From positions 1-23,191 of IMG/VR virus record IMGVR_UViG_3300047362_000192: 23,191 nucleotides of DNA, one strand, 5' to 3'. Made by a program: the position numbers and the translations under genes. Source of the DNA: a virus. The notes under the pieces were generated by a model. It ran no database searches and had not been told where the DNA came from. It saw only the letters and a program-made list of their open reading frames with translations. Positions 2,409 through 21,202 of the stretch are shown here, one piece after another (position 1 is the first letter of the stretch; each line of letters begins with the position of its first letter).

Positions 2409-2485
<77 letters not shown>

Positions 2486-2642: not shown

Positions 2643-3308
2643 TTATTTTCCTTCTTCAACAAATTTAATTCGATTTATTACAGTTTCAAATCCAGCATGA
2701 TATTTACCTTTAGATTGTCCTTTTACAAAACCTTCAACTGTAATTTCTTTGCCTGGTGCAATTTTTTTGTCTGTAAAGAACTTTAAAATATGCTGATTTT
2801 TTACACTACAGGTAACAATATAACTCATAGTTCTTGGTATATACCTAGTAAACTCTACAGTAGCATCAATTTTTTCCCTAGTGTGTAGTTTACCAATTTT
2901 TTCACTAGTTCTGGATAATTCCATTTCTCTATCAGTCCAAGTATCCTGATCTACTTTATTTAGATATACTTTAGGTAAACTAGCGGCTATGCCTAATTTA
3001 TCCTTGGCAATTTCAGGAGAACTTACTAACTTAAGAACATTGCTCTCAAATTCTGTTAAAGTTCTTTCTAATGCTTTAAAACTTAACCCTGCAAGATACT
3101 CTTTAACTTCAGTTGCAGTAGTTTTATCTTCTTCTATGACTTTAAATTTTTTATCTGTAAAAAAATAATTGTATAGTAAGTCACTATTACATGTCGTTTT
3201 TTCAAACTTTTTATCGAACCTTACTTGGTCCTTTTTAATGAAGCCCTCATTTATTCTGTGAGCGGCACAACTGACTGCTAGTACTTCATCAATTGGAAAT
3301 TTTTGCAT
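2643..3308 (-). CDS. hypothetical protein, 221 aa, possible OB-like C-terminal domain
   Basis: Unknown function, probably early because a perfect host-type promoter sits 33 nt upstream with AAAGGAG before ATG 3308. The first ~150 residues are mixed charged and helical. The last ~65 (MSYIVTCSVKNQHILKFFTD...GKEITVEGFVKGQSKGKY...VINRIKFV) have the strand pattern of the small OB-like domain found at the end of many phage proteins, where a 'K-F-T' strand is followed by 'G-x-x-V-T-V-E-G-x-V'. Such domains often bind nucleic acid, but that is inference. No catalytic motif seen. Confidence 0.8.
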   Translation of the reverse strand: MQKFPIDEVLAVSCAAHRINEGFIKKDQVRFDKKFEKTTCNSDLLYNYFFTDKKFKVIEEDKTTATEVKEYLAGLSFKALERTLTEFESNVLKLVSSPEIAKDKLGIAASLPKVYLNKVDQDTWTDREMELSRTSEKIGKLHTREKIDATVEFTRYIPRTMSYIVTCSVKNQHILKFFTDKKIAPGKEITVEGFVKGQSKGKYHAGFETVINRIKFVEEGK

Positions 3309-3340: not shown

Positions 3341-3368
3341 ATTATAGCAAATCTTTAAACTTTGTCAA
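3341..3368 (-). promoter_or_regulatory. sigma70-type promoter for the 221-aa gene
   Basis: Minus strand TTGACA (3368-3363), 16-bp spacer, TATAAT (3346-3341), both perfect. Expected start near 3334, leader about 26 nt with AAAGGAG. Confidence 0.9.
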
Positions 3369-3380
3369 GTGTTTATTCAT

Positions 3381-3411
3381 AAAAATACCCCCAAAAAAGG
3401 AGGTATTTTAT
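3381..3411 (-). terminator. intrinsic terminator after the outer-membrane protein gene
   Basis: Minus strand AAAATACCTCC - TTTTTT - GGGGGTATTTTT: an 11-bp stem with one non-Watson-Crick pair and a following T run, 15 nt after the stop at 3426. It isolates the barrel gene from the next promoter. Confidence 0.8.
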
Positions 3412-3425
3412 ATTTTCTAATCTTA

Positions 3426-4028
3426 TTAGAATGATTTGGATAAAGAAAATACTATTGTATCTTCGTCCATCATTCCTGAATCACTGTCAGCAGTAAAGTC
3501 TACATAAGCAATACCACCTTCAAGACCCATTGGAAGATCAAAAGACTTAGAGATACGCAAGTTGTCACCAACTTCGTCCCACATACCAAATGAAACGTCA
3601 ACACCCATTACTGAATATCCTAGTTCTAAATAGTCTGTGTAGTCATCTTGACCCATGTAATATTCTACTGAAACACCCATGACTGATTTGCTGACAAATA
3701 TTTCGCCGCCATCTAAATCTGCATCACCGTTGTAACTGTAGTCAATATATCCTACTGTCCAATCACCGTTAGACCAACCGCCATACAAATCAGTTTCTAA
3801 GTCTGATCCGTCTGCTAAGTCGATTTGTCCAACCCATGCGCCGAGCATAAATCCGCTTTCGCCAAACGTATGATTGTAATCTACCCATGCTGAGTGACTA
3901 CCGTCTGTTTGTGATACACCTCTAAATAGATAATCAGAATCTAGTCCAACACTGACTCCTGCAAATGCTGGTACTGACATAACTGACAATATTGCAACTG
4001 CTAGAGTTGATTTTAATAATTTAAACAT
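3426..4028 (-). CDS. outer-membrane beta-barrel protein, TorF / TIGR02001-like putative porin
   Basis: 200-aa exported protein. Signal peptide: positive start (MFKLLK), hydrophobic core (STLAVAILSVMSV) and cleavage site AFA-G after residue 23. The mature protein opens with VSVGLDSDYLFRGVSQTDGS, close to the SDY.FRG.SQ..G signature of the TorF/TIGR02001 family of putative porins. The rest alternates polar and hydrophobic residues as in amphipathic barrel strands (Gly/Asp/Tyr rich), and it ends in Phe (FSLSKSF), the usual signal for barrel assembly. It sits alone between its own late promoters and a terminator, like a cargo ('moron') gene. It may change host permeability or mask a receptor; both are inference. 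Confidence 0.85.
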   Translation of the reverse strand: MFKLLKSTLAVAILSVMSVPAFAGVSVGLDSDYLFRGVSQTDGSHSAWVDYNHTFGESGFMLGAWVGQIDLADGSDLETDLYGGWSNGDWTVGYIDYSYNGDADLDGGEIFVSKSVMGVSVEYYMGQDDYTDYLELGYSVMGVDVSFGMWDEVGDNLRISKSFDLPMGLEGGIAYVDFTADSDSGMMDEDTIVFSLSKSF

Positions 4029-4056
4029 TTAGTTCTCCATATATTAATTAAAGTAA

Positions 4057-4065
4057 TATTTATTA
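4057..4065 (-). promoter_or_regulatory. late promoter TAATAAATA for the outer-membrane protein
   Basis: Minus strand TAATAAATA, 28 nt before ATG 4028, at the usual late-promoter distance. ATGGAGAAC between them gives the ribosome site (GGAG). Confidence 0.55.
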
Positions 4066-4104: not shown

Positions 4105-4112
4105 TATTTATC
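4105..4112 (-). promoter_or_regulatory. late promoter GATAAATA (second, upstream)
   Basis: Exact GATAAATA on the minus strand, just after the stop of the nucleotidase gene and 76 nt before ATG 4028. Tandem with the box at 4057. Confidence 0.6.
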
Positions 4113-4113
4113 T

Positions 4114-4704
4114 TTATTTTGAGGTAATATATTGATGTATTTGTTCCCAATTCTTAACGACAGTACCTTCGACAGGCGTTTCCATGTTGTGACCATGCTC
4201 CATTAGTATGCCTTTAAGCCCAACATAAACACCAGCCATTAAGTTTTCTGGTTTATCTTCTATCCAGTATGCACCAGGATATTTGTGTCCATAGTCTGCA
4301 AGTATCTCATCTTTATCTGCACCTGTATCTAAACATACAACTTCTATAAAGGCATCGCCCATTAATTTTTTAAGATTTCTTTCTCTTAGTTCTTTTGCAT
4401 AAGGATCTAAACTAAGACTAGTAAGAGCAATAAATTTATAACCATACTTTTCATGTAGCAAGTTAATATACCATTGTGCGTCTCTGAGTGGAGGTAAAAA
4501 TCCTATTGCGGCACTTTCATTAAACTGCTTGATTAAACTACGACTAGTTTCTTTTGTAATACCATATCTGGTACCTACATCATATACAAACTGATAGCCT
4601 TCAGTTAAATTATGTCCGTGATGTTGCATCCAGACATTAAATCCTTCTTCCCAATCTAATACTACACCATCTATGTCTGTGAGTATAACTTTATCTTTTT
4701 TCAT
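4114..4704 (-). CDS. HAD-superfamily 5'(3')-nucleotidase-like phosphatase
   Basis: 196 aa. Motif I is ILTDIDGVVLDW (nucleophile Asp10, acid/base Asp12), motif II ALTSLS (Thr95/Ser96), a Lys near 131 (GADKDE) and motif III/IV YWIEDKPENL (Asp150), so the HAD catalytic set is complete. The short all-in-one form resembles phage and bacterial 5'(3')-deoxyribonucleotidases, which would act in nucleotide salvage in the host cytoplasm; substrate is inferred. ATG 4704 has TAGGAGAA upstream and a perfect host-type promoter, which suggests early expression. The gene is followed by late promoters of the next gene and no clear terminator. Confidence 0.8.
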   Translation of the reverse strand: MKKDKVILTDIDGVVLDWEEGFNVWMQHHGHNLTEGYQFVYDVGTRYGITKETSRSLIKQFNESAAIGFLPPLRDAQWYINLLHEKYGYKFIALTSLSLDPYAKELRERNLKKLMGDAFIEVVCLDTGADKDEILADYGHKYPGAYWIEDKPENLMAGVYVGLKGILMEHGHNMETPVEGTVVKNWEQIHQYITSK

Positions 4705-4727: not shown

Positions 4728-4755
4728 ATTATACTGGTTTTCATACGAATGTCAA
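4728..4755 (-). promoter_or_regulatory. sigma70-type promoter for the nucleotidase
   Basis: Minus strand TTGACA (4755-4750), 16-bp spacer, TATAAT (4733-4728), both perfect; start near 4721 and a leader of about 17 nt containing GGAG. Confidence 0.9.
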
Positions 4756-4777: not shown

Positions 4778-5350
4778 ATGGCAGTTAAAAAGACGACAGT
4801 ATTTCCAGACTATGTATTTGAAACTCAGATAGAGGTTCCTAAAGAGTTAAATAGGCAAATCCAGGACAGCCTAAAACTTAATAAAGAATCCGGTATCACA
4901 ACTGAGACAGTTTATGGATGGTTTACTAACAAACAATTTCCATGTGAAGGTGTTATAGGAAATATAGCAAATTTATTAGCAACTAATTTTGTTTCAAATG
5001 TAGTACAACACTTTGACTTACAAGTTGCTAGAGATATAAATTTACTTAATCCTTGGATTATTTCAACTAATCCTCACCACTCTTTCCCTACTACAATAGA
5101 GCATCAAAGATGGTACAATGCTGGAATATACCTACAAACAACAAACAAAGGCAGTCATTTAAAATTAGATAATTATACATCTAAAATATATGCCAGTCAA
5201 AACACACAAGAAACGTCACACTTTATTAAACCCAAACAGTTTAAAGTAATATACTGGCCTAGTCATATACCCTGGAGTTTAACTCCTAATATGTCAATGG
5301 TTGAAACAACCATGCTTATATGCTCGTTCAGAGCAGACGCTCAGAAATAA
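4778..5350 (+). CDS. 2OG-Fe(II) oxygenase-like protein, probably degenerate
   Basis: 190 aa, a lone plus-strand gene. The outline matches the short 2OG-Fe(II) oxygenase-like proteins common in marine T4-like phages: N-terminal FPDYVFETQIEVPKELNRQI, a central NPWIISTNPHHSFPTTIEHQ, the strand RWYNAGIYLQ where relatives have SGVYYL, and a C-terminal YWPSHIPWSLTPN...MLICSF where relatives have FPSWLPHSVEPN...RISISFN. The distal metal-binding His of relatives is Trp here (IPWSL) and the first His-x-His is only partly kept, so iron binding is doubtful. It may be a non-enzymatic, possibly structural, descendant. No ribosome site; possible leaderless late transcript. The shared terminator follows. 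Confidence 0.6.
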   Translation: MAVKKTTVFPDYVFETQIEVPKELNRQIQDSLKLNKESGITTETVYGWFTNKQFPCEGVIGNIANLLATNFVSNVVQHFDLQVARDINLLNPWIISTNPHHSFPTTIEHQRWYNAGIYLQTTNKGSHLKLDNYTSKIYASQNTQETSHFIKPKQFKVIYWPSHIPWSLTPNMSMVETTMLICSFRADAQK

Positions 5351-5410: not shown

Positions 5411-8400
5411 TTAAACCCAGTTGTAGTGAACTGAAGCCACTGCCGCACCGGCTGAAGGAGCCACTGCGTTATCACTTGCGTCAAAGAATGCTAACGTTAC
5501 CGCCGCATTTTTTGTAAGTGCTATGTCGCCATCTAGTTCTATAATATAGTTACCTACTGTAGCCGCATCTGCGTCTGCTTTAGCAACAAGTGTACTACCT
5601 GAACCAGCATTTTCTTTAATAGTAATGTAATTAATACTGTTACCACTAAATGCTGTGCTGACTTTGATTACTATCTTTTCTGCATAATATGTTCTGCTAG
5701 AAACGTTAGGGACAGTACCAATTGAAGCCGTTGTTGCTCCACTTGTTATTGCCGCTCTTAGTAATAGTCCGTCACCACCATTGTTTTCAACATAGTCAAC
5801 AACTGCCGCTGAAGTTGGAATAGTAGTATCATTATCGTTATTACTAATTCCGTCTGCTTCATCAACAAATTTAGTAACAGCAATGCTCTCACCTGAATCT
5901 GTTAATGTACCAAAACTTACAGCACCACTAATTGTAGCACTTGTACCAATGAATCCAGCCGCTTCAAAATCAGTTGCCGCTAGTGTTAAATCACCAGCAG
6001 TTGATCCGTCTGCAGTTGTAGTCGCCGCTACAAATCTATCAACGTTTTGATCCCATCCTAAGAAACCGTTGTTACCATCTGTTCCTCTTTCATATATGTG
6101 ACCAATGTCATTAGGGTTAGCACCAGTTAATCCACTTTGTAGTGTAATTAAGGTGTCAGTTATAGTTGTGTTAGTTGAATTAACACTAGTTTGTGTACCA
6201 CTAACTGTTAAGTTACCACCAACTGTTACATCACCTGATGTAGCAATAGTTGTAACACCTGTTAATGCACCACTGTTAATACTTGCTACGCCATCAGTTA
6301 ATGTACCTGCTGATACTTGTCCTGAGAAAGTACCTGCTGTCATTCCTGATAATGTTGCGTCTAGGTTTACTGTTAATGTGTTACTTGAACCTGCAGTAGT
6401 AATGTTAGTACCACCTGCGATGTCAAGGACTTCACTGTCAAGATCAATACTTAATGCACCACCTGAGTCGCCTTGGAAGTCCAAGTCGGCCGCTGTTGCT
6501 ACTGAGTCAACGTATGCTTTAACAGATTGCTGTGTTGGGATAAGTGTAGCACTATCTGATGCCATGTTATCTTCATCTACAAAACCTGTAGCAGTAATTG
6601 AACCGTCGCTTAGTGAACCAAATTGTACAGTTCCTGAAGCAGTAACGTTTGTTACTCCTGTTAGGGCACCTGAGTTGATACTTGCTACACCATCACTTAA
6701 TGTTGTTGCAGTTAAACTTGTTAAGCCACTTACTGAACTTGCTAGTCCAACAGCAATAGTATTATTACTAACTGTTGTTGTAGTTTCGTTTGAAGTACCT
6801 ATAAAGTTTAATGTATCAGTTCCTACTCTTACAACGTCATCTGAACCACTGTCAGCACCGATTGTTAAATCTGAGCTAATAGCCGCTGTTCCGGCCGCTG
6901 TTAAACGTCCTTGTGCGTCAACTGTAAAAGTTGGAATTGCTGTTGCACTACCATATGAACCTGCACTAACGGCAGTATCGTCAAGGTTTACAGTTAAAGT
7001 ATCAGTAGCCGTAGTTACTGTTGTTATTCCTGTTCCACCTGCGATGTCAACTGTGTCTCCACCGTCAACTGTTTGCGTACCACTATCACCTGTTAATGTC
7101 CAAGAAGTAGAGATAGAGGCTGTAGAGGCTCCTGTAATCCTACCTTGAGCATCAATTGCCAATACTGGAATTGCTGTACTACTACCATAGTTACCAGCCG
7201 ATACTGCTGTATCGTCTAGGCTCACAGTTAAAGTTTGTCCTGAACCGACTGTTGAAAGTCCTGTTCCACCAGCAATGTCTAGCACTTGTGAATCAAGGTC
7301 TACACTCAATGCACCACCTGAATCTCCTTGGAAATCTAGGTCTTGTGCAGTAATTTGAGCATCAACGTATGCTTTTACTGATTGCTGTGTAGGTATTTTA
7401 GTTGCAGAGTTTGAGGACATATTGTCTTCATCTGCAAATGTTACACCTGAGATTGTTCCATCACTAAATGATGTACCTTCTACTGCACCAAATTTAACAG
7501 CACCTGCACTACCAGTAATTACTGATGAGTTGTCTGTTGCATCTGGAATATATGTAAATACGCCTGTACCTTCGTCCATACCAAAGAAACCAGTTTTTGC
7601 TGATCCATCGTTATGTAGATAAGTAACACCTCTGTCTAAGTTATCGTTAGTATTTGAACCTACTTGGAAAAGTGGGTCTGCAATAGTAACAACTGTAGAA
7701 TCTGTAGTTGTTTGCGTACCTGTAACTGTTAAGTTACCGTTAATTGTAACTGTAGCCGCTGTAATGTCATCTGATAAGAAACTACCAGTAACACTTAGGT
7801 TATTACCTATTGTTACGTCGTTAGGTAAACCTAAAGTTACTTTAACGTCTGTTCCGTCTTTAGTAACTGCTGTTTCTATTTCATTTGCTGTACCCAAGAA
7901 CTGTAAATCATCTGCTGATAAATCTACGTTTTGTGTTCCTGAATCACCGTCTACTGTTAATGCTGTTACGATACTTGCTGTAGTTACTGCTGTAACTAAA
8001 CCTTTAGCATTAACTGTAACAACTGGAATGGCAGATGCTCCACCAAATGTTCCAACGTTACTGTTTACTGTTGCTAAAGTACCAGCACCTGTTACATTAC
8101 CTGTACCATCAAACGCCGCTGATGTCCATGTCATGTCACCTGTCATACCGATTGTTCTACCGGTTGCTAGTGCTGTTGCTGTATCTGAATTTCCTGTTAA
8201 GTCACCGGTAAATCCACCGGTTGCTTGAATTGTTGTTCCTGTGATCGCCGCCGCAGAGTTGGCTCCAATAATAGTACCATCAATGGCACCGCCATCAATG
8301 TTTACTGAATTACTGGCCTGTACTGCTAAGTTACCAAGTCCTAAAGCCGTTCTTGCGTCAGAGGCCGATGTTGCACCTGTACCACCATTTGCAATTGGTA

Positions 8401-8704
8401 ATGTACCACTTACATCTGCTGTTAGGGAAATCGATCCTGCCGACATAGTTCCGCTAGAAACTTTAATAACACCTGACGAACTACTGAAATCTTGTCCTGT
8501 ACCACCGTATTGACTACTGATTGCACTACCATTCCAGGCTCCCGCCGTAACCGTTCCTAATCTTAAATCTTCAAGAGTAGATCCGTTACTTTGAGTTAGG
8601 TCAAATCTTCCGTTACCTGCGTCGTAAATTAAACGTCCGCCTGATTTGCCCATTTGTACATCAGCCGCTATACCTTTGATACCAAAGTTTTTAATATCAG
8701 CCAT
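5411..8704 (-). CDS. giant repetitive virion structural / fibre protein, 1097 aa
   Basis: Rich in Gly, Thr, Ser, Ala and Asp with no enzymatic motif. Typical fibre features: QYGGTGQD near the start and GGTGATSASDARTALGLGNLA near residues 107-127. Repeats: a ~59-residue unit from DEDNM through IPTQQSVKAYVD and DLDFQGDSGGAL to LDIAGGT occurs twice (DNA 7262-7438 and 6409-6584), a DGVASINSGALTGVT unit twice, and NYGSSTAIP..IDAQGR-type units several times. Two blocks (TTTDSTVVTIADPLFQVGS... and SVNSTNTTITDTLITLQSG... with GFFG/GFLG) resemble a domain of cyanophage virion proteins. It probably forms a trimeric appendage; receptor binding is inference. Late promoter at 8775; SD TTAGGAG before ATG 8704; strong terminator after it. 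Confidence 0.85.
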   Translation of the reverse strand: MADIKNFGIKGIAADVQMGKSGGRLIYDAGNGRFDLTQSNGSTLEDLRLGTVTAGAWNGSAISSQYGGTGQDFSSSSGVIKVSSGTMSAGSISLTADVSGTLPIANGGTGATSASDARTALGLGNLAVQASNSVNIDGGAIDGTIIGANSAAAITGTTIQATGGFTGDLTGNSDTATALATGRTIGMTGDMTWTSAAFDGTGNVTGAGTLATVNSNVGTFGGASAIPVVTVNAKGLVTAVTTASIVTALTVDGDSGTQNVDLSADDLQFLGTANEIETAVTKDGTDVKVTLGLPNDVTIGNNLSVTGSFLSDDITAATVTINGNLTVTGTQTTTDSTVVTIADPLFQVGSNTNDNLDRGVTYLHNDGSAKTGFFGMDEGTGVFTYIPDATDNSSVITGSAGAVKFGAVEGTSFSDGTISGVTFADEDNMSSNSATKIPTQQSVKAYVDAQITAQDLDFQGDSGGALSVDLDSQVLDIAGGTGLSTVGSGQTLTVSLDDTAVSAGNYGSSTAIPVLAIDAQGRITGASTASISTSWTLTGDSGTQTVDGGDTVDIAGGTGITTVTTATDTLTVNLDDTAVSAGSYGSATAIPTFTVDAQGRLTAAGTAAISSDLTIGADSGSDDVVRVGTDTLNFIGTSNETTTTVSNNTIAVGLASSVSGLTSLTATTLSDGVASINSGALTGVTNVTASGTVQFGSLSDGSITATGFVDEDNMASDSATLIPTQQSVKAYVDSVATAADLDFQGDSGGALSIDLDSEVLDIAGGTNITTAGSSNTLTVNLDATLSGMTAGTFSGQVSAGTLTDGVASINSGALTGVTTIATSGDVTVGGNLTVSGTQTSVNSTNTTITDTLITLQSGLTGANPNDIGHIYERGTDGNNGFLGWDQNVDRFVAATTTADGSTAGDLTLAATDFEAAGFIGTSATISGAVSFGTLTDSGESIAVTKFVDEADGISNNDNDTTIPTSAAVVDYVENNGGDGLLLRAAITSGATTASIGTVPNVSSRTYYAEKIVIKVSTAFSGNSINYITIKENAGSGSTLVAKADADAATVGNYIIELDGDIALTKNAAVTLAFFDASDNAVAPSAGAAVASVHYNWV
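6409..7438 (-). repeat. internal duplicated unit in the fibre gene (two ~176-bp copies)
   Basis: Copy A at 7262-7438 and copy B at 6409-6584 encode nearly the same block (IPTQQSVKAYVD, DLDFQGDSGGALS, DLDS.VLDIAGGT). A second pair of about 47 bp lies at 6258-6304 and 6658-6704 (GVASINSGALTGVT). The copies differ mostly at third positions and a few residues, so they are an old duplication kept in frame. Confidence 0.8.
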
Positions 8705-15004: not shown

Positions 15005-15639
15005 TATTTCTCCAATAATTTTACTTTTTGTACCTTATCTATATAATCACCATAACTTAATTTTAAGAAAGGGTAACCTTTATCATACTCTTCTTGTGTG
15101 ACCCACAAATAATTTTGGTACCAATTGTTTGTGTAACTATCAAATAATCTATAGCCGGCAAAACTTCCTTCTATAAATTCCCTAATATCCTTTCCTATAT
15201 TCTTATCCATACCATAACTTCTATGAAATGATATCTTAATAGGATATTTTCCGTACCAGTATTTATTCCTATATACATACTCTGTGTTTGAATCCAGAAG
15301 TCCTTTTAGATGATCTTCATCAATGGGAGCAGTAATAAAATTTAAATAATCTGTGTGCTGATACCTATCTATAACGTTGTCTAATACATCTTTGTTATGT
15401 AAATAAACATTAATTGACTTTGCTGTATTTTGTATTCTGTAATGCCATGTATATTGATTTAATGTTCTATATAAGTCGCTAAGGAAAACAATATCATAAT
15501 GAAACATGTTACCTTCAAAACTTAACTTATACTGAAAGTCGCTGTAGTAGATTTTATCACTTGCAGTTACATCATAACCACGATAGGTCTTCCCTAATGG
15601 TTCACATGAACCTTTATTATAAAATCTGTCGTATTGCAT
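15004..15639 (-). CDS. hypothetical Tyr-rich protein, 211 aa
   Basis: Function unknown. It is unusually rich in Tyr (more than 25) and other aromatics (YTWHYRIQN, NKYWYGKYPIKISFHRSYG, NNWYQNYLWVTQEEYDKGYP), with no signal peptide or membrane segment. It overlaps the clpA stop and the lysozyme start, both as TAATG, so it is translated in a chain with them. Between an unfoldase and a lysozyme it could be a ClpA adaptor or substrate, or an unrelated passenger; it does not look like ClpS. Confidence 0.7.
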   Translation of the reverse strand: MQYDRFYNKGSCEPLGKTYRGYDVTASDKIYYSDFQYKLSFEGNMFHYDIVFLSDLYRTLNQYTWHYRIQNTAKSINVYLHNKDVLDNVIDRYQHTDYLNFITAPIDEDHLKGLLDSNTEYVYRNKYWYGKYPIKISFHRSYGMDKNIGKDIREFIEGSFAGYRLFDSYTNNWYQNYLWVTQEEYDKGYPFLKLSYGDYIDKVQKVKLLEK

Positions 15640-17828
15640 TATAGTACAAATGTATATTCGTCATCTTGTATATCAATAAGTATATCTCTATTTGTAATAT
15701 TCTCAAATAAGATTTTTTTACTTAATGGCTTTTTAACCTTGTCCTCAAATACTCTTTTAAGAGGCCTTGCACCCATGCTAGGCTTATATCCATCTTTTGC
15801 TAATTTTTCTCTACATGTATCTGAAATAGATATTGTTACACTACTTTCGTTTTCACTAAGCAGTTCATTAGTTTCTTTTACAAGCCTATCAACAATTAGT
15901 AACATAAGCTCTATTGCTAGTTTATTAAATTGTATTGTGGCATCTAGCCTGTTTCTAAATTCAGGAGAGAAGAATTTCTCAACTGCCTTGTCTACTGCTT
16001 TTAGTTTTGTTTGGTCGCCAAATCCTATTTTAAGTCCTTCAGCATCTGTGGCACCCAAGTTAGATGTCATTAGCAATATAACATTACTAAAGTCTACTTC
16101 CTTACCTGTGCTACCTGTAAGTCTACCATCGTCCATTACTTGTAGCAATACTTGTAATACTTCTGGTGCGGCTTTTTCAACTTCGTCTAATAGCAACACA
16201 CAGTTAGGATTTTCTTCTACTTCTGCAAGTAGTAAACCTTGTCCTAGTTTACCCTCAGCATGTCCTACATATCCTGGAGGAGCACCTATAAGTTTACTAA
16301 CACTATGTTTTTCCATGTACTCTGACATATCAAACTTAACTAGTTTACATTCTAATTCATTAGCAAGTGTTTTAGCAGTTTCAGTTTTACCTGTACCTGT
16401 AGGTCCTACTAATAAGAAACTACCAATTGGTTTATTTTTCTCTCTGAGTCCTGACTTACTAACCACAATATTTTCTACAATTTTATCTACTGCTTCATTT
16501 TGTCCAAACACAACCTTTTTAATTCTGGCATCTAAGTTTTTATATGTATCAATACTTTCTATATCAATAACATCAGCACCAACATTTGATATTTTACTAA
16601 TAACATGTATAACATCTTTAAGTGTAACATCGTCCTCGCCACGTAACTTAACTCTGGCTCCTGCGGCGTCTACTACATCTAATGCTTTGTCTGGGAAGGC
16701 TTTGTTCTTAATATATCTGTGACATAAGTCTACTGACTTCTCTAATATATCTTGGCTGTATTTAACTTTGTGGAAGTCTTCATAATAACTATTAAGTCCT
16801 TTTACAATCTCTTTTGTGTCCTCAACATTTGTTTCTAGTATATCTAATTTAGCAAACCTACGCATTAATGCTCTGTCCTTCTCAAAACTATCTGCAAATT
16901 CGTCTGGCGTTGTTGCACCTATTGTAAGCAATCTGCCTTTGCCTAACACAGGTTTAATCATATTGGCAATGTCTACACTACTGCTACCAGCACTACCGGC
17001 ACCCATAATCATATGTATTTCATCAATAAACAAAATAGCATTAGGACTAGCCTCTAATGTTTCAAGTACTGTCTTGAACCTCTCCTCAAAGTCTCCTCTG
17101 TATCTAGTACCAGCAAGTAAGTCGCCTACTGCAAGGCTGTAAATAATTTTATTTTGTATAACATCAGGAACATCACCATCAACAATACGTTTAGCAAGAC
17201 CCTCTGCTACTGCTGTCTTACCTGTACCAGGCTCCCCAACTAATACTACATTATTCTTTTTACGTCTTGCAAGTATGTGTACAAGTTCATCTACTTCTTC
17301 ATGTCTGCCTATGAGGTTATCTATTCTATTTTTTTGTGCCTCGTCATTTAAGTTAGTTGTATATTCTTTAACTAACTCTGAACTTTTATCACTGTTATAT
17401 TTGTGTTCTAAATAGTCTACAATAATATTTTTGTCTAATCCATTTAACTGGCAAAAGTAGGCGGCATGACAATTTTGTTCGCTTAAGATACTTAAGAACA
17501 TATCTAATGGCTTAACTTCTTCTCTGCCACTAAAAATTACCTGTGCTAATGCACGTTGAATTATTCTTTCTGTTGAAGCAGTTTTTTTAGGTTCCCCTTT
17601 TACTCCATGTTCATTTTCTAATCCATTAAGTTCAGGATCATCTAAATAATGATTTAAATCTTCTACAATATTATTTAAATCTACACTTAGCTCTTTTACT
17701 AGTTCAGCAATGTCTTCATTTTCCAAAAGACAAAACATGATATGTTCTAGTGTAACATATTCGTGGCCTTTATCCTTTGCAAAAGTTACTGCGTTTTGGA
17801 TTATGTTATCTATATATTTGCTTTCCAT
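15639..17828 (-). CDS. clpA: ClpA-like AAA+ protein unfoldase
   Basis: 729 aa, near the length of bacterial ClpA. Order: N-domain (residues 1-~145), AAA+ 1 with Walker A GEPGTGKT (198-205) and Walker B ILFIDE (265-270), AAA+ 2 with Walker A GPTGTGKT (475-482), Walker B VLLLDE (544-549) and Arg-finger region FRNRLD (~624-629), then the C-terminal small domain (MGARPLKR). There is no long coiled-coil M-domain, so it is not ClpB. The loop KIGFGD at 600-605 holds the tripeptide IGF, at the place of the IGL/IGF loop by which ClpA and ClpX dock on ClpP. So it could feed substrates to host ClpP. No clpP is in this window. ATG lies 23 bp inside the end of the dnaJ-like gene. Confidence 0.95.
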
Positions 17829-20586: not shown

Positions 20587-21111
20587 TTATAATCCCATAT
20601 TCATTTGTTCTTGACCAACTTGTGCATTTGCATCTGTATCTTCCTGATCAATGTACTCATCTTCTTTTGCTTCAACATGTTGAGCACTAAACTCATCTAC
20701 ATATCTTCTTGGCATGTCTATACTGACTATCCAAACAGGTTCGCTGTCTGCTTTAGGTGTAAAACGTTGAGAGCCATCTGGTCTTGTTCCTACTTCAACA
20801 TCATTAAAGTCTTTTACCCTACGTGGTGATTCTAACATATCTTTGTCATACTTAACTAAGCAATCTCTTGCAATTAATCGTTTAGCACCATCAGGGTCTG
20901 GCATTTCCTTATGTGGATATATTAATTTAACATTCACATAGTGTCTGCCTAAAGTAGGTCCTTCTAATACTTCTCCCTTATCCCAATTTTTAAAAGCATA
21001 TAGATCTAATTCGTCTAATGTTTTCTCAAATTCCATAAGCATATCTAGTAAAGTATTAGATTTAGATACTTCTGTTATTTTATCGTTTAAAATTTTAACT
21101 GAAATTGTCAT
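20587..21111 (-). CDS. hypothetical protein, 174 aa
   Basis: Unknown function. Begins MTISVKILNDKITEVSK, with a helix (TLLDMLMEFEKTLDELDLYAFKNWD), a beta-rich centre (RHYVNVKLIYPHKEMPD, EPVWIVSIDMPRRYVDE) and an acidic disordered tail with Gln (EDEYIDQEDTDANAQVGQEQ). I chose ATG 21111-21109 over an in-frame GTG at 21126 because the GTG lies inside the promoter box GATAAATA (21117-21124). Neither start has a Shine-Dalgarno site; the box is five bases from the ATG, so the mRNA may start at the ATG. First gene of the run that ends with the spanins. Confidence 0.7.
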   Translation of the reverse strand: MTISVKILNDKITEVSKSNTLLDMLMEFEKTLDELDLYAFKNWDKGEVLEGPTLGRHYVNVKLIYPHKEMPDPDGAKRLIARDCLVKYDKDMLESPRRVKDFNDVEVGTRPDGSQRFTPKADSEPVWIVSIDMPRRYVDEFSAQHVEAKEDEYIDQEDTDANAQVGQEQMNMGL

Positions 21112-21116
21112 ATTAG

Positions 21117-21124
21117 TATTTATC
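21117..21124 (-). promoter_or_regulatory. late promoter GATAAATA, leaderless position
   Basis: Exact GATAAATA on the minus strand, then CTAAT and ATG 21111. By T4 late-promoter geometry (box at about -13 to -6) the start falls on the A of ATG. Confidence 0.65.
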
Positions 21125-21202
21125 ACCTGAATAAACTATTGTGTTATTAGAATGAACTCTATTGGTAAATAATATTGTAATCAATTACAGAATACATAAT
21201 TT

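Follow-up and report, generated by a model that had tools for sequence, protein, structure and literature searches.

A TorF-family porin gene in a marine phage, its kinship with SAR86 proteins and a possible role in ammonium or small-cation uptake

Introduction

What might a phage gain from a gene for a bacterial outer-membrane porin, and from which cell did that gene come? This question is raised by a stretch of viral DNA of 23,191 nucleotides (IMG/VR record IMGVR_UViG_3300047362_000192), taken whole and called the window below. An earlier note, made from the letters of the DNA, had proposed that it carries a late-expressed outer-membrane barrel of the TorF/TIGR02001 type, acquired from a bacterium. 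A literature search on phage TorF, Gcw_chp or TIGR02001 proteins found no relevant work. Here we describe the gene, its viral and cellular relatives and the roles that it might play.

Results

The porin gene lies on the minus strand at 3426..4028 and encodes a protein of 200 aa. The profile search that had been proposed as a possible refutation of the barrel assignment places this protein with TorF: it scores 51.5 bits for TIGR02001 ('TorF family putative porin'; cut-off 47.15) and 37 for the Pfam family PF09694, Gcw_chp (cut-off 24). Its score for the cyanophage barrel family PF24653 (Phage_OMP) is only 15.3, with a gathering cut-off of 27, and the KdgM profile is absent among the Pfam matches listed for it. 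The features that had been read from the sequence are all found in this open reading frame, namely a signal peptide (residues 1-23; 3960..4028, minus strand) with cleavage between AFA and G, the SDYLFRGVSQTDG signature (3900..3938, minus strand) and a C-terminal Phe. As for the span of 3426-4065 first given to the gene, its lower bound holds and its upper bound does not: the reading frame itself ends at 4028, and the stretch up to 4065 takes in one late promoter box.

The strand pattern, proposed as a further check on the barrel, is present in an AlphaFold2 model built on an alignment of 34 relatives from phages and bacteria. The model has a mean pLDDT of 91.9, with a signal helix at residues 2-16 and 12 strands within residues 21-199. 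The signature is located in the first extracellular loop (residues 31-45 in the model), and its residues Y33, R36, G37 and Q40 are invariant in the 34 aligned rows; E78, D80 and E109 are conserved across phage and bacterial rows. Among solved structures, the top match to the model is KdgM (Z 15.8, 2.5 Å over 153 residues), and other matches are NanC (Z 14.1) and Tsx (Z 12.7). The window protein is a TorF-family barrel, with a predicted location in the outer membrane and a putative channel activity.

The porin gene has a promoter region and a terminator of its own, as the earlier note had described. Two late boxes precede it, GATAAATA at 4105..4112 and AATAAATA at 4057..4064, together with a GGAG ribosome-binding site at 4035..4038, and an intrinsic terminator hairpin of 11 pairs with a T-rich tail lies 3' of the stop codon at 3382..3409, all on the minus strand. 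The boxes have counterparts in three viral relatives (L112, L114 and L116), and the same hairpin recurs in these loci. GATAAATA is present in six copies, every one on the minus strand of the window; 1.5 would be expected, and none of 100 shuffles reached six. Five of the six sit closely 5' of the start of an open reading frame; the sixth, at 21124-21117, falls on the 5' end of ORF 20587-21126 as set mechanically, and where that frame truly starts is uncertain. A plain terminator scan of the region gave a number within chance (5 found, 4.2 expected), and the case for the terminator is therefore built on the stability (-14.2 kcal/mol, z -3.3) and the conservation of the hairpin itself.

The two flanking genes, also on the minus strand, lie outside this unit and have early promoters with an exact TTGACA-16-TATAAT. 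The upstream neighbour, which belongs to phrog_420 (4114..4704), has its promoter at 4728..4755. The downstream neighbour (2643..3308), for which family searches gave nothing over cut-off and which has no assigned family, has its own at 3341..3368, both promoters being on the minus strand. Such exact promoters number three in the window, against none expected. The porin thus belongs to a different expression class from the genes that flank it, and it is in terms of expression that the gene stands apart from its neighbours.

Other genes of the window and of its relatives deserve mention. A tRNA-Arg gene (anticodon TCT; 2409-2485, minus strand) is found just before a late box at 2401-2394. A 2OG-Fe(II) oxygenase-like gene (4778-5350, plus strand, opposite to the porin) matches phrog_81 at E 2e-4, with no Pfam match, and a Clp-like ATPase gene (phrog_4871; 15639-17828, minus strand) has its best named-phage matches, at 46%, in large Pseudomonas phages of the PA5oct type. 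In a related locus (L002/L112), a run of extra genes (L112:1560-4796) lies between the porin gene and the homologue of the 2643-3308 gene; the window has none there, and the site is a possible insertion hotspot.

Another phage group indicates that the timing of the porin is not fixed to its role. In six of six loci examined in that group (L117, L119, L120, L122, L123 and L125), the homologous porin gene is preceded by a strong early-type promoter, with TTGAC(A/T) and TATAAT hexamers of the sigma-70 type at -103 to -107. If these hexamers act as early promoters, the porin would be wanted early in that group and late in that of the window. Late expression was consequently rejected as an indication of a late role, and the earlier argument that it speaks against a role early in infection loses its force. 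In the same phage group, a ferritin-like gene (PF00210; L120:1840-2280) precedes TorF by a few genes.

None of 50,697 phage records searched matched the window protein at E 0.01. IMG/VR yielded 51 viral TorF loci, about 37 of which (L111-L146 and L157, several near-identical copies included) are of the compact type of about 200 aa found in the window, as judged by length and sequence. The other 14 are of a longer type, of 233-240 aa, and two of them were placed elsewhere in the first tree described below. These longer proteins of viral contigs (L147-L156 and L158-L161) fall outside the compact clade, near Microbulbifer, and may represent host sequence or another capture. The genes around the viral porin form at least seven different sets. 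The Gp23 major capsid gene was detected in only four of 25 porin-carrying phage contigs (L128, L140, L142 and L143), so that one single T4-like phage group is not demonstrable by this test. The record CAKLQF020000008.1 (L019), named Acinetobacter phage MD-2021a, was not used as a phage relative: it has catechol and muconate genes beside Gcw_chp and looks like a bacterial chromosome.

Two phylogenetic trees, one of 64 rows and a second of 65 rows with more SAR86 proteins, both place the viral and SAR86 proteins together. In the second, which omits twelve rows of the first, mostly ones with long branches or remote from the viral clade, a split with a support of 97/96 sets the viral and SAR86 proteins apart from 31 other bacterial rows; support at the base of the tree is modest. 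The core viral clade, with 18 rows including the window porin, has a support of 99/99. Two more viral rows, L146 and L157, are found on a long branch close to the viral/SAR86 split, and a single capture for all 20 viral rows is accordingly no more than possible.

The SAR86 label is based on the order of genome G027 (locus L033). When 369 genomes were drawn evenly from the class, the highest scores came from four genomes (G031, G027, G029 and G030; 79.2 to 63.6 bits, the next at 55.5) that had also been drawn in the search of the SAR86 order. An even sample of the phylum, with 398 genomes, had the SAR86 genome G027 in first place, at 72.3 bits, with the next at 53.5. Within the SAR86 order, a TorF match at 1e-5 was found in 154 of 199 genomes. 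A genome scan with a phage-only alignment recovered no cellular relative, its patterns being phage-specific. A scan with a mixed phage and bacterial alignment did recover cellular relatives and also ranked SAR86 first, a ranking that is pattern-limited and does not by itself constitute evidence. Sequence kinship thus identifies SAR86 as the nearest cellular lineage of the phage porin, at 30-44% identity, and the earlier proposal that the gene was acquired from a bacterium is supported by the joining of viral and SAR86 proteins in the phylogeny. Judged from the porin gene, SAR86 is also a plausible host of these phages; the phage DNA polymerase, sought in SAR86 genomes as independent host evidence, gave one match only, at 30%.

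In SAR86, torF is found in an ammonium-operon context. Among the 20 loci considered, which are the best-scoring ones and not a random draw, amtB lies downstream of torF on the same strand in 19, with glnK between the two in 17; one of these loci (L182) comes from the same genome as L031. On a strict count, 16 or 17 loci have glnK, and 17 have an Amt of >50% identity, with two distant ones in addition. In three glnK-bearing loci the Amt match is distant, partial or weak (about 25% identity in L171 and L173), and in L181, L182 and L186, as well as in L031-L033, amtB follows torF with no glnK match. The transporter of one SAR86 locus, taken as a fragment of 359 aa, has its best NCBIfam match in the marine Amt subtype TIGR03644 (492.7 bits, below the cut-off of 514), and the small protein of the tested locus matches P-II models, below the equivalog cut-offs.

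Other Gammaproteobacteria show the torF-amtB linkage in part. Of the 80 bacterial loci in the genome scan, 27, three SAR86 loci among them, encode a similar AmtB within their 3-kb flanks, the order of the genes varying between loci, and four others have glnK together with a distant relative of Amt. By our own estimate, chance would place amtB within 3 kb in well under 1% of cases for a genome of 4 Mb. The neighbours of torF are rpe, trpS and dam in Alteromonas and a two-component system in Marinobacter, and one Pseudoalteromonas copy adjoins a BCCT betaine transporter gene. Taken over these loci, SAR86, the sister lineage, has a strong ammonium link, and the TorF family as a whole a partial one.

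The barrel has a mosaic ancestry within the viral pool. Over 9.4 kb, the window and L004 are mostly >90% identical, with the gene ends and flanks near 95% and the porin middle at 51-83%. This central segment, with approximate bounds 3540..3985 (minus strand), matches L112 (82-96%), and the ends match L114 (89-97%), the reverse pairings being lower, which indicates that the window porin arose by recombination between two barrel types. For the porin relatives, pairwise dN/dS is 0.12-0.39; these values, obtained by a counting method with dS often near or above 1, are approximate, and they show at the sequence level that the porin is kept by purifying selection. Another gene of the window, that of a 1097-aa structural protein (5411-8704, minus strand), has internal repeats about 70% alike, and its patches at 6900-7400 and 8200-8400 are 63-86% identical to L004, amid surroundings that are mostly about 99% identical.

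Discussion

We propose, with about even chances of being right, that the phage porin is a captured channel of the SAR86 type for ammonium or small cations, which would feed the AmtB of the host. A 12-stranded channel would have been captured long ago from a torF-glnK-amtB operon of SAR86-like marine Gammaproteobacteria and would now circulate among marine phages as a free-standing auxiliary gene. The porin would be exported and inserted into the host outer membrane during infection, making that membrane more permeable to ammonium or to small cations like it; AmtB, the inner-membrane transporter that the host itself supplies, might then feed nitrogen into phage synthesis. Uptake of nitrogen or of small cations is suggested by the position of the nearest bacterial relatives beside glnK and amtB. 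The mature porin has 5 K/R against 33 D/E, and the residues that presumably face the lumen comprise 12 D/E against 1 K/R, as assigned from strand alternation, not from model coordinates, with two strands ambiguous. In the modelled barrel, an acidic lumen of this kind would suit a path for cations, ammonium included. TorF proteins with no ammonium link are equally acidic, so that this make-up does not single out ammonium as the substrate.

Other points count against an ammonium channel. Ammonia and ammonium already pass general porins. AmtB (PF00909) was found in none of the 25 porin-carrying phage contigs, many of which are fragments, and the identity to SAR86 TorF is only 30-44%. As most viral contigs are fragmentary, the absence of AmtB is a weak point. 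We also put forward, tentatively and as a possible rather than a probable history, that a single old capture from SAR86 gave rise to a viral channel lineage that moves and recombines among unrelated phage groups infecting SAR86, under early or late promoters.

The phage porin might instead alter or replace a host surface protein and block later phages, by superinfection exclusion or by receptor masking. Outer-membrane proteins of phages are frequently associated with exclusion, and the Lc porin of phage PA-2 was reported to block the adsorption of later phages. Late expression in the window's group would suit the protection of the infected cell and of the progeny, and the swapping of the barrel middle by recombination within the phage pool would also be in keeping with such a function. 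However, the extracellular loops are short in the model (3-15 aa), and conservation in loops 1, 5 and 7 equals or exceeds that of the strands. Loop-driven diversification is disfavoured, the loops being no more variable than the strands, and the masking of receptors by variable surface loops, one reading of the earlier suggestion, is weakened accordingly. Purifying selection on the porin, and nearest cellular relatives that are genes of transport operons, also argue against exclusion, which we consider unlikely.

The protein might also form a general pore in the outer membrane that serves another small solute, such as betaine, TMAO or amino acids, the ammonium link then being incidental. The TorF family name refers to a TMAO locus, and some TorF genes adjoin a BCCT betaine transporter gene or other genes, as described above. 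Set against this is the ammonium linkage of 19 of the 20 loci in the sister lineage SAR86, and we give little credence to a pore of this kind.

A helper of lysis or release, which would weaken the outer membrane late in infection, would agree with the late boxes of the window's phage group. Help with phage release had been among the roles first suggested for the gene; it is weakened by the early-type promoter of the homologous gene in the L117-L125 group. The presence of a spanin-like gene in the window and the small porin-type barrel of the model also speak against this role, which appears very improbable. Lastly, the cargo-like position of the gene, with its own promoter and terminator, might be that of a neutral hitchhiker from a recent random capture, a reading already disfavoured by purifying selection (dN/dS 0.12-0.39), the old viral clade and at least seven gene neighbourhoods, and one that we find scarcely credible.

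Our preferred reading remains a captured channel for ammonium or small cations. SAR86 ranks with the most abundant of the uncultured marine lineages, and few phages are known to be linked to it. The porin would be a marker that ties at least seven phage gene neighbourhoods to this one cellular lineage, and it provides a testable claim on what the phages that carry it need from their host. If the single-capture reading is true, the outer membrane, and not the inner-membrane transporter, would be the step of nitrogen uptake that these phages alter. A role as the outer-membrane partner of GlnK-AmtB is suggested for part of a family listed as 'putative porin' or of 'unknown function'. More generally, a phage may be able to acquire just the outer-membrane component of a nutrient system.

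With regard to known systems, the phage porin shares with SAR86 TorF a signal peptide, a DYxFRGxSQ-type motif, conserved acidic positions, the barrel, a compact length of about 200 aa and a C-terminal DEDxxVFSxSxS end. Unlike SAR86 TorF, the phage porins form a clade of their own at no more than 44% identity, occur without amtB and have phage promoters. KdgM and NanC are 12-strand monomeric channels like the porin model (Z 14-16), but they have about 6-10% identity to the window porin, whose barrel is strongly acidic; these two porins prefer anions. Like the window porin, members of Phage_OMP (PF24653) and other phage barrels, such as E1A206 of Aeromonas phage phiAS5, are outer-membrane barrels encoded by phages. 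Acinetobacter phage AB1I1M-1 (OQ627712), like the window phage, carries a gene annotated 'TorF family putative porin'. Its protein, in contrast, does not join the marine viral clade; it has a long branch whose position is uncertain and is, as far as the tree can tell, a separate capture. By analogy, the nearest precedent is the glnK-amtB-ompL cluster carried by marine viruses of oxygen-depleted waters (PMC8115048), in which a viral outer-membrane porin is tied to ammonium uptake, as we propose for the window phage. Compared by description, ompL is of the Flavobacteriales type and comes with glnK and amtB, whereas the window carries TorF alone, with SAR86 as its nearest cellular relative.
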